Part shown: positions 1 to 3,077 of the stretch, in pieces
Numbering within the stretch: the first letter of the stretch is position 1
Layout of the letters: every line of letters starts with the position of its first letter
Source: Nitrospirales bacterium
Lineage (GTDB): Bacteria; Nitrospirota; Nitrospiria; Nitrospirales; UBA8639
Direction: 5' to 3'
Length of the DNA: 37,182 nucleotides
Assembly: GCA_022824735.1 (NCBI GenBank)
Contig: JAJDZI010000062.1
Location: 1 to 37,182 of the forward strand
The notes under the pieces: generated by a model
Databases searched by the model: none
The model's input: the letters and a program-made list of their open reading frames with translations, nothing else
What the model was told of the DNA's origin: nothing
Program-made: the position numbers and the translations under genes

Positions 1-628
1 GGTTCTGTTTGACGACGGCCCGCACAGCACGGGTCAGATGTTCACCCATGTCCTGGGGCCGCGTGCTTCGCTTCCGTTCGTCGAGCGGCCATTCGTAGCT
101 TTCGCGGCCGTTGATGACGCTCCATCGCGCTTCGGGTGGCAAGTAGAAGCGCAGCAACTTGTGATCGCTTTCGGCAACCTCCAGTGCGGTGGCGCGGTCG
201 CCGTATTCCTCGGCCAGGCGTCCGATCTCATCGTCGAACACGTCGGACAATCGTTTGAGAAACAGGAGCGGCAAGAGGTAATCTTTGAACTTGGCAGCGT
301 CCTTTTCGCCGCGGATGGAACAGGCCGCGTCCCACAACATCTGCTCCATGGGTTTGGTGGATGGGGAAACGGCGCGTCGGGCTGCTTTTGCCCTGCGTCG
401 GGTAACGCGCGATGCCGCTTCGGTCGGCTCTATGGCTGCCTCCGCCTCGTTGAGCTCCGCCTCGGCGGCAAGTACGGCGATCGCTTCCTGTGCTGCCTTT
501 TGTGGCTTGGTGGCGCCGCCTTCCCAGCGGTTTATTGTGGCGAAGGAGACACCGAGCCGTTCAGCGAGTTGCTGCTGGGTAAGATCGAGTTTGGCCCTGA
601 TGGCGCGAATTGTTGACTGAATATCCAT
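1..628 (-). CDS. hsdM: Type I restriction-modification methyltransferase (HsdM), N-terminal XRE HTH fusion, partial
   Basis: The frame is open from ATG 626-628 to the window edge, giving 209 codons of the N-terminus. Residues 5-50 form an XRE-type helix-turn-helix ([20 protein letters not shown] at 17-36). Residues 51-93 are an Ala/Glu/Arg-rich linker. From about residue 96 the sequence matches the HsdM N-terminal helical domain ([37 protein letters not shown]). HsdM subunits methylate adenine with SAM and partner HsdS; the catalytic NPPF region lies outside the window. The HTH fusion is unusual for HsdM and suggests that the subunit, or a processed form of it, binds DNA in a sequence-specific way, perhaps at the heptamer array just upstream (inference). 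The domain assignment is firm; the rest of the operon is not visible. Confidence 0.85.
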
Positions 629-659
629 AACACCATTTATTGATATGTTTGAAATAAAA

Positions 660-841
660 TATAGCAAACATAGCAAAGTATAGCGCTTCACGCAACTTTT
701 TCATAAAGACATCCATGCAATCATAGCATGCTATGAAAAACATAGCGAAATGCTATGTAATGCTATGTTTTTATAGCATTTATAGCAAATTCATAGCATT
801 GGCATAGCACGACATAGCATAAACATAGCAAATTCATAGCA
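660..841. repeat. Array of 15 heptamers, helically phased, upstream of hsdM
   Basis: The heptamer CATAGCA (variants TATAGCA, CATAGCG, TATAGCG) starts at 660, 669, 679, 722, 741, 772, 781, 792, 803, 813, 824 and 835, and in inverted orientation (TGCTATG) at 729, 751 and 761. Start-to-start distances are mostly 9-11 bp, so most sites fall on one face of the helix. The copies at 722 and 729 join into the perfect palindrome CATAGCATGCTATG. One gap without a good copy runs from 686 to 721. The array ends 31 bp before the hsdM start, so it covers the likely promoter. It looks like a cooperative operator for a DNA-binding protein; the XRE domain of the adjacent HsdM is the obvious candidate (inference). 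Confidence 0.9.
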
Positions 842-1005: not shown

Positions 1006-1275
1006 GTGAGCACTCGTTCCAACGCGTATTGGAAGGCTAACCTGCGGCTGATTGGGTGGTGCCTTATGGTTTGGGGTGTGGTGTCTTATGGGTGCGGCAT
1101 CCTCTTTGTCGAACAACTCAACCGCATCTCTCTCGGCGGATACAAGCTGGGCTTCTGGTTCGCACAGCAGGGGGCCATGTACGCATTTGTCGCCTTGATC
1201 TTCTTCTACAATTGGCGAGTCACCAAGCTGGATCAACGCTACCGGGCCGAGCGCGACACACGGGACGGCGCATGA
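1006..1275 (+). CDS. Solute:sodium symporter small subunit (DUF4212 / TIGR03647 type)
   Basis: An 89-residue membrane protein with two hydrophobic segments (about residues 13-35 and 50-67). The pattern YWKANLRLIGWCLMVWG near the N-terminus is typical of the DUF4212 family, which accompanies TIGR03648 symporters. The start is taken at GTG 1006 because AAAGAGG lies 5 bp upstream; longer in-frame starts, such as ATG 958, lack a ribosome site and would include repeat sequence. Its stop overlaps the start of the large subunit by 4 bp (ATGA), indicating translational coupling. It probably stabilises or modulates the large subunit in the inner membrane. The substrate cannot be told from sequence. 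Confidence 0.85.
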   Translation: MSTRSNAYWKANLRLIGWCLMVWGVVSYGCGILFVEQLNRISLGGYKLGFWFAQQGAMYAFVALIFFYNWRVTKLDQRYRAERDTRDGA

Positions 1276-3077
1276 GTTTGCAGGTTTTGACGACGGTCGT
1301 CGTGGGATTCACGTTTGTGGTGTATGTCGGGATTGCTTTTTGGGCCCGCGCCAACAGCACCAGTGAATTTTACATCGCCGGCAGACACGTCCCGCCCGTG
1401 GCCAACGGTATGGCGACTGCGGCGGACTGGATGTCAGCGGCTTCCTTCATCAGTATGGCGGGCCTGATTGCCTTTCTCGGGTACGAAGGCAGCATGTACC
1501 TCATGGGCTGGACCGGCGGGTACGTGTTGCTGGCTATGCTGCTCGCGCCGTACTTGCGCAAATTCGGCAAATTCACCGTGCCGGAATTTATCGGCGAACG
1601 GTATGACTCCGACCTGGCCCGCTTCGTGGCCGCCCTGTGCCTCATCTTCATCTCCTTTACCTACGTGGCGGGACAAATGCGCGGAGTCGGCATCGTGTTT
1701 TCCCGCTTCCTCGAGGTGGAGATCGACGTCGGACTGGCCGTCGGGATGGGGATCGTGTTCATCTACGCCGTGCTCGGCGGGATGAAAGGCATTACCTACA
1801 CCCAGGTGGCGCAATACTGCGTGTTGATCTTCGCGTATACCGTCCCGGCCGTGTTCATTTCCATGCAATTGACCGGCAACCCGGTTCCGCAGTTGGCCTT
1901 GGGGTCCACCATGGCGGACGGGTCCGGGTATCTCCTGCTGAAACTGGATCAAGTCCTGGTGGACCTGGGGTTCAACGCCTATACACACCCCTTCAACGAT
2001 AGTTCCATGATCAACGTGCTGGCCATTACGTTTGCCCTGATGGCGGGGACCGCGGGCCTGCCCCACGTGATCGTGCGGTTTTTCACCGTGCCCCACGTGG
2101 CGGATGCACGACGGTCCGCGGCTTGGGCTTTGGTTTTTATCGCGCTGCTCTATACCGTGGCTCCGGCCGTCGGCGGGCTGGCGCGGTTGAATCTCATTAC
2201 GACCGTCAATGGCCCCGATGGCACGGGCACCGCCTATGAAACCATGCCGGGCTGGTTTCGCACGTGGGAACACTCGGGCCTGATCGCCTGGCACGATCAC
2301 AATCATGATGGTCACGTCCAACACGCGGCCGGCCGAGCCTTCGCCGGTGGCAAACCCGTCTTCGACGGCGATGCCCGTGGTGAATCCGGCCAGCGCCTGG
2401 TCACGAATCCCGGTCCCGGCAACGTAGCCGAGGGCGCGCCTTTCGCCAATGAAATCTACGTGGACCGGGACATCATGGTGTTAGCCAATCCGGAAATTGC
2501 CGGCCTGCCCGATTGGGTGATTGCCCTGATTGCCGCAGGCGGTATTGCCGCGGCGCTGTCCACCGCTGCGGGACTGTTGCTGGTCATTTCCGTGGCCGTG
2601 TCCCACGACATGTTAAAAAGCACCTTTGCGAAAAACCTGTCGGAGAAACAGGAATTGACCGCCGGTCGCATCGCCGCGGCCATATCCATTGGGATCGCAG
2701 GCTATCTCGGGGCTAATCCCCCGGCGTTCGTGGCTCAGGTGGTGGCGTTCGCCTTCGGGCTGGCGGCCTCGTCCCTGTTCCCGGTCATCCTGCTGGGTAT
2801 CTTCAGTACGCGCATGAACAAATGGGGGGCCATTGCCGGCATGTTGACGGGACTCATCTTTACCATGGGCTATATTCTATATTTCAAAGGCGTGTTTATC
2901 GCTCCCATGGCGGAGAACGTCCCGGCCAACTGGTTTCTCGGCATTTCGCCGGAAGGCATCGGCACGGCCGGCATGCTCCTGAACCTGTGCGTCTCGCTGA
3001 CGGTCTCGCAATGCACCACGCCGCCGCCTGCCAAGATCAGGGAACTGGTCGAACGCATCCGCCTGCCGGAGACGTGA
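1272..3077 (+). CDS. Sodium:solute symporter large subunit (SSS family, VC_2705/ActP-like)
   Basis: The 601-residue protein starts at ATG 1272, which overlaps the small-subunit stop; the frame stays open upstream but that part is a shadow. It has the LeuT-fold SSS pattern: N-terminal TM1, SEFYIAGRHVPPVANGMATAADWMSAASFISMAG, then GYVLLAMLLAPYLRKFGKFTVPEFIGERY and the central LPHVIVRFFTVP signature. A hydrophilic insertion at about residues 310-400, rich in His, Gly and Asp, lies between membrane segments; such an insert is seen in the VC_2705 subfamily. The family imports organic acids such as acetate with Na+. With DUF4212 as partner, a small carboxylate substrate is plausible but unproven. 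Confidence 0.9.
   Translation: MSLQVLTTVVVGFTFVVYVGIAFWARANSTSEFYIAGRHVPPVANGMATAADWMSAASFISMAGLIAFLGYEGSMYLMGWTGGYVLLAMLLAPYLRKFGKFTVPEFIGERYDSDLARFVAALCLIFISFTYVAGQMRGVGIVFSRFLEVEIDVGLAVGMGIVFIYAVLGGMKGITYTQVAQYCVLIFAYTVPAVFISMQLTGNPVPQLALGSTMADGSGYLLLKLDQVLVDLGFNAYTHPFNDSSMINVLAITFALMAGTAGLPHVIVRFFTVPHVADARRSAAWALVFIALLYTVAPAVGGLARLNLITTVNGPDGTGTAYETMPGWFRTWEHSGLIAWHDHNHDGHVQHAAGRAFAGGKPVFDGDARGESGQRLVTNPGPGNVAEGAPFANEIYVDRDIMVLANPEIAGLPDWVIALIAAGGIAAALSTAAGLLLVISVAVSHDMLKSTFAKNLSEKQELTAGRIAAAISIGIAGYLGANPPAFVAQVVAFAFGLAASSLFPVILLGIFSTRMNKWGAIAGMLTGLIFTMGYILYFKGVFIAPMAENVPANWFLGISPEGIGTAGMLLNLCVSLTVSQCTTPPPAKIRELVERIRLPET

Follow-up and report, generated by a model that had tools for sequence, protein, structure and literature searches.

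The heptamer array upstream of the HTH-HsdM gene

The analysed DNA (the window, a 37-kb stretch of 37,182 nucleotides) opens with a gene truncated by the contig end, followed by an array of short repeats and a divergent gene. The features are as follows.

1..628, minus strand: 5' part (209 codons) of a gene for an XRE HTH fused to HsdM; ATG at 628, truncated by the contig end
639..677, no strand assigned: inverted repeat, TTTGCTATGTTTG-N13-CAAACATATCAAT on the minus strand; 24/26 to the version in genome G007
660..841, plus strand: CATAGCA array of 15 YATAGCR heptamers, 12 on the plus and 3 on the minus strand
660..685, plus strand: three promoter-proximal heptamers adjoining the HTH-HsdM start; a 43-bp step precedes the other twelve
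722..735, no strand assigned: back-to-back palindrome CATAGCATGCTATG inside the array; the orthologous array of G009 has the same
1272..3077, plus strand: symporter-like membrane protein (family by resemblance), divergent, on the other side of the array

The gene starting at 628 matches Pfam HTH_3 (39 bits) and then HsdM_N (67 bits). Orthologues of this HTH-HsdM are found in eight genomes and are full-length (about 607–611 residues) in G001, G006, G007, G010, G012, and G013. In G009 the reading frame is split (L189), possibly by an assembly error, and the array is kept. The symporter-like protein has orthologues in G001, G006, and G007.

YATAGCR occurs 21 times in the window, compared with 6.1 ± 2.4 in dinucleotide shuffles (shuffle maximum 13), and 15 of the 21 matches fall within one 182-bp stretch. 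The spacings between the heptamers are, in order, 9, 10, 43, 7, 12, 10, 10, 11, 9, 11, 11, 10, 11, and 11 bp, that is, 9–12 bp apart from the single 43-bp and the single 7-bp step. The minus-strand heptamers are located at 729–735, 751–757, and 761–767, and the orientation is more mixed than in most other arrays. A promoter-proximal group like that at 660..685 is also present in G009 and G012. An earlier note on this DNA had described fifteen YATAGCR heptamers, three of them inverted, with a palindrome among them, a phasing too regular for chance, and an adjoining gene for HsdM with an extra XRE domain. The coordinates, the shuffles, and the Pfam matches bear out each of these points. The note had overlooked the 43-bp step and nine further arrays in the same genome.

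The inverted repeat directly precedes the HsdM start codon and overlaps two heptamers. The corresponding palindrome of G007, TTTGATATGTTTG-N13-CAAACATATCAAA, is perfect (13/13), which is reached in 0 of 300 shuffles, and G007 is arrayless, indicating that an array-independent operator exists. Seven species have the palindrome, with or without an array, and the six array-bearing species keep 22–24 of its 26 positions. Its half-site TGATATG differs by one base from the heptamer read as TGCTATG, and the left half-site contains a heptamer in G000, G009, and G012. The start-codon palindrome is probably the operator of the XRE domain, a more natural candidate than the array. Because it overlaps two heptamers, the palindrome and the track of heptamers could compete. 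Two signals are separated in this way at one restriction-modification promoter, a gene-specific palindrome versus a global track.

A genome-wide family of arrays

The window's own genome contains 52 CATAGCA pairs (heptamers 2–5 bp apart), compared with none for the reversed control pattern. The pairs make up ten arrays on ten contigs, nine of them beyond the window array. Among 60 relatives searched, pair clusters were found in eight further members of the genus, which consists of sponge-associated, Nitrospira-type bacteria, and in none of five others; outside the genus, the relatives have three isolated pairs only. Altogether, 79 arrays were defined in nine of 14 congeneric genomes, with 17 arrays on 11 contigs in G005. 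Most of the genomes are MAGs with a completeness of 90–100% (G010 and G011 are single-contig), so single absences may be missing sequence. Among the matches listed by a triple-heptamer scan of GTDB, arrays with irregular spacers at a 10/11-bp phase occur in Nitrospira/Nitrospirales MAGs, the genus included, and most other organisms have plain constant-period tandem repeats or different elements. Rows of at least four copies at 9–12 bp recur for a single 7-mer, CATAGCA, in 861 kb from the window's genome and one congener (19 loci); the other row-forming 7-mers are its shifted registers and one 7-mer motif at a single locus. Together with the dinucleotide shuffles, this result rules out a chance repeat.

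Array neighbours include mreB, nuoF/purE, an xthA-like gene, and ilvE; we presume these names and those of thiC and nadA from reading the protein sequences. The sites common to many species are P0002 (a small gene described below), nuoF-purE, an mreB-containing cluster, HTH-HsdM, and the xthA-like gene, and several arrays lie at the same site in six to eight species. By simple ORF picking, 11 arrays are in co-directional, 10 in divergent, and 5 in convergent context. Since all three contexts occur, a promoter-only role for all arrays is unsupported, and a simple promoter-operator role does not account for the many arrays located 3' of a gene or between two convergent ones.

The arrays are phase-locked to the helical repeat of DNA. 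Adjacent heptamers on one strand are 10 or 11 bp apart in 437 of 513 cases and 9 or 12 bp apart in the others (mean 10.46 bp). The best period is 10.45 bp, with a pairwise coherence of 0.79 over the 79 arrays of nine genomes, and larger gaps are mostly 20–22, 30–32, or 41–43 bp, as if copies were missing. Successive spacings compensate for each other (r = -0.37, compared with -0.13 ± 0.04 in within-run shuffles; such a low value in 0 of 5000), and summed spacings gain variance more slowly than in the shuffles, up to five or six steps. Simple tandem duplication is insufficient to account for the arrays because the spacers differ and the spacings compensate. A coding repeat was set aside, as a 10.45-bp period keeps no reading frame.

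Between orthologous arrays, the heptamers are 96.7% identical, the spacers 80.1%, and the flanks 80.7% (246 ordered comparisons in which genome pairs are not independent and aligner anchoring may slightly inflate the heptamer value). Judged by these identities, the heptamers, as putative recognition units, are under purifying selection. Phase-locking, compensation, heptamer conservation, and the uniqueness of CATAGCA together argue strongly for a protein that recognises CATAGCA along one DNA face. The cooperative one-face binding proposed in the earlier note is therefore well supported as a prediction, more by the whole array family than by the window array.

P0002, a candidate reader encoded beside thiC

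P0002, whose gene adjoins thiC, is a protein of 139 residues that is predicted to be helical at the N-terminus and to end in a winged helix resembling HARE-HTH. HARE-HTH (PF05066) matches were obtained in all eight orthologues (best E-value 4.7e-5); the match in the G000 copy, at 20.4 bits, is below the cutoff of 25.9. The AlphaFold model is poor (mean pLDDT 44), and a PDB sequence search with P0002 gave no good match. Searches of plasmid and phage collections gave no match in either, and an origin of P0002 as a plasmid or phage gene was dropped on that ground.

P0002 is intact in exactly G000, G001, G003, G005, G006, G009, G012, and G013. These eight genomes are those with 3–17 arrays (8/8 versus 0/6 elsewhere), a profile that rests on 14 genomes and that another gene could share. 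P0002 is absent in G002, G004, G007, and G008, all four of which have zero arrays of the strict pattern; G010 has a broken remnant and zero arrays, and G011 has no intact P0002 and one array. An array lies immediately upstream of P0002 in all eight genomes, in the order nadA, array, P0002, thiC in G006. The array in front of HTH-HsdM follows the presence of P0002 (6/6 with it, 0/2 without it), not that of HTH-HsdM.

Traces of loss are found at the same locus. In G010 (L296, about 1519–1677), the interval from nadA to thiC holds a P0002 remnant that is 68% identical in the last 44 residues and contains a stop; a lone CATAGCG is nearby. In G004 and G007, nadA is joined to thiC, with both P0002 and the array missing. 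G004 retains one decayed array of a looser pattern in the nuoF-purE intergenic region (L284, L264). In a nuoF tree, in which several inner nodes are weakly supported, G006 and G011 are sisters (bootstrap 100) yet differ in P0002 and arrays, and G007 and G004 are interspersed with species that have P0002. The remnant, the nadA–thiC junctions, and the scattered tree positions indicate that P0002 and the arrays were seemingly lost together several times. P0002 looks ancestral. Its nearest outside relative (38% identity) is in G210 (L295, 1486–1965), a genome of the same taxonomic order, and follows an ORF with a transposase-like sequence. No repeat array was found upstream of this relative, so the arrays are not a general trait of the protein family.

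On balance, we favour the view, with some reserve, that the arrays are cooperative binding tracks for P0002, which would have many targets, the HTH-HsdM promoter among them. P0002 would bind the heptamers head to tail along one DNA face, and the distance of one helical turn between successive sites would make its binding cooperative. Since an array lies in its promoter, P0002 probably autoregulates, controlling its own gene through that array. At HTH-HsdM, a P0002 track would cover the intergenic region and overlap the palindrome that HTH-HsdM itself probably uses. Its occupancy would repress or modulate the restriction-modification operon, competing with autorepression by HsdM. From sequence alone, a genome-wide DNA–protein system can be defined: dozens of sites share a heptamer and a helical phase, and a candidate protein is lost along with them. 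The system yields a prediction that can be tested for the HARE-HTH-like proteins of bacteria, a winged-helix group that has received little study. It also offers a natural series of losses, and the decay of putative binding sites once their candidate reader is gone can be followed directly in G004 and G011.

Competing explanations and known systems

According to the earlier note, HTH-HsdM may itself repress or count its own expression, with its XRE domain bound to the heptamers. In accordance with this, an array lies upstream of six of the eight HTH-HsdM orthologues, the window array is mixed in orientation with its palindrome at 722–735, and the half-site of the start-codon palindrome resembles, and in three genomes includes, the heptamer. 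The link between array and gene holds in all six genomes with both, but fails in G007 and G010, which keep the same HTH without any array. Conversely, G003, G005, and G011 have arrays without HTH-HsdM, and most arrays adjoin unrelated genes; with nine other arrays in the window's own genome, an operator of HsdM only was rejected. The recognition helix, GVSFA[TS][IV]NRWEGG, is nearly identical in species with and without arrays, and the palindrome is perfect in arrayless G007. The same HTH thus occurs without an array, an outcome that the earlier note itself had named as refuting its proposal, and reading of the array by HsdM's own HTH is disfavoured and, in our estimate, quite improbable. HTH-HsdM is probably not the main array reader, and P0002 is the better candidate.

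A selfish repeat is another possibility: a MITE- or REP-like element without function for the host may have spread from one intergenic region to another, with the heptamer row as its interior. Some arrays are indeed species-specific and resemble dispersed elements: a non-orthologous subset has common arms, ...GCTTTGCGGAA|array|CAAGCCTTTTGTCTCCTTCGGTCATTCCCGCC, the right arm ending sharply at 30–32 bp, and the array block C18 of G013 was not found at the orthologous site in the other species examined. However, the heptamers and not the spacers are conserved between orthologous arrays, the compensating spacings hold the helical phase, several arrays persist at one site in six to eight species, and the arms are absent from the P0002 and HTH-HsdM arrays, the window array included. 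No clean target-site duplication was found, in orthologous intergenic regions too diverged to reveal either such a duplication or a clean empty site. We consider a selfish origin improbable. A further explanation is that the arrays are polar, dispersed nucleoprotein sites that serve nucleoid structure, segregation, or replication traffic, with gene regulation secondary. The arrays are dispersed (17 on 11 contigs of G005) and also occur in convergent context and 3' of genes. Of the two strands, the one that reads CATAGCA is the richer in G in 26 of 34 non-redundant clusters (p = 0.003), in 20 of 24 at strong skew (p = 0.0015), and in 14 of the 17 arrays of G005 (windows of about 27–50 kb; p = 0.013). 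Control of promoters would not call for such a polarity. The skew was computed in local windows, in which replication strand and regional gene orientation are not separable, and the HTH-HsdM arrays are discordant with the GC skew or mixed. Moreover, the number of arrays per genome is low and variable (3–17), several members of the genus are without intact arrays, including the complete chromosome G010, and the complete G011 has one. We consider a primarily chromosome-organising role unlikely. A polar chromosome-organising system can be proposed tentatively, although we regard it as rather unlikely: a dedicated small winged-helix protein, nucleating at the promoter of its own gene, would coat dispersed, helically phased CATAGCA tracks oriented with the replication strand; tracks and protein would have been lost repeatedly as a unit, and the tracks would also gate a restriction-modification operon. 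Such a system would be previously undescribed.

The favoured reading, with P0002 on phased tracks, has partial precedents. TAACTGA intergenic direct repeats of marine Beggiatoaceae consist of one heptamer in many intergenic sets per genome, some sets being interrupted by related heptamers, and their reader is unknown (MacGregor 2015, PMC4679880). They are the closest precedent for the genomic pattern, one heptamer in many intergenic direct-repeat sets. Unlike them, CATAGCA forms 4–15 copies locked to 10.45 bp and has a candidate DNA-binding partner with which it is co-lost; whereas TAACTGA sets lie mainly just upstream of start codons, CATAGCA arrays are co-directional, divergent, and convergent. 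BldC of Streptomyces, a solved precedent for small winged-helix proteins on direct repeats, forms head-to-tail polymers on such repeats, whose number varies, and the DNA is distorted as a result (PMC5859096). Like BldC sites, CATAGCA repeats have a fixed orientation and keep helical phase across gaps, and the mechanism of BldC is the one proposed for P0002. BldC is MerR-like with AATT-based repeats, whereas P0002 is HARE-HTH-like with a helical N-terminus; no homology is claimed. RptR is a small repressor that acts at several direct repeats in the promoter to control a type I restriction-modification island (PMC12255303), and it is the closest precedent for type I systems under direct-repeat control. 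However, the RptR gene lies alongside the restriction-modification genes, and the site bound is a palindrome of 6 bp, TAGCTA, whereas CATAGCA repeats are genome-wide and their candidate reader is encoded next to thiC. The CATAGCA system differs from all three, and none is the same.

Several other repeats were encountered. Viral contigs of IMG/VR gave no matching array pattern, only plain tandem repeats or other elements with different spacing. Short dispersed repeats of the type ...TCATTCCCGAC...GGGAATCCAG... (L207, 795–851; L249, 1119–1178), of which most members of the genus have dozens, often adjoin CATAGCA arrays. In Candidatus Poribacteria, an element in many copies combines CATAGCAAATTTCATAGCAGCTTTCATAGCA, spaced at 12 bp, with TGCTATG in inverse orientation some 85 bp beyond (L018, L033, L043–L045, L050, L055, L056, L065, L066, L072, L074, L077, L089, and L092); this is a different dispersed element with the same heptamer in another sponge symbiont. 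Long rows of CATAGCATTAA at 11-bp spacing, in both orientations and several per contig, are present in L029 (Gammaproteobacteria Glo_16) and L110.
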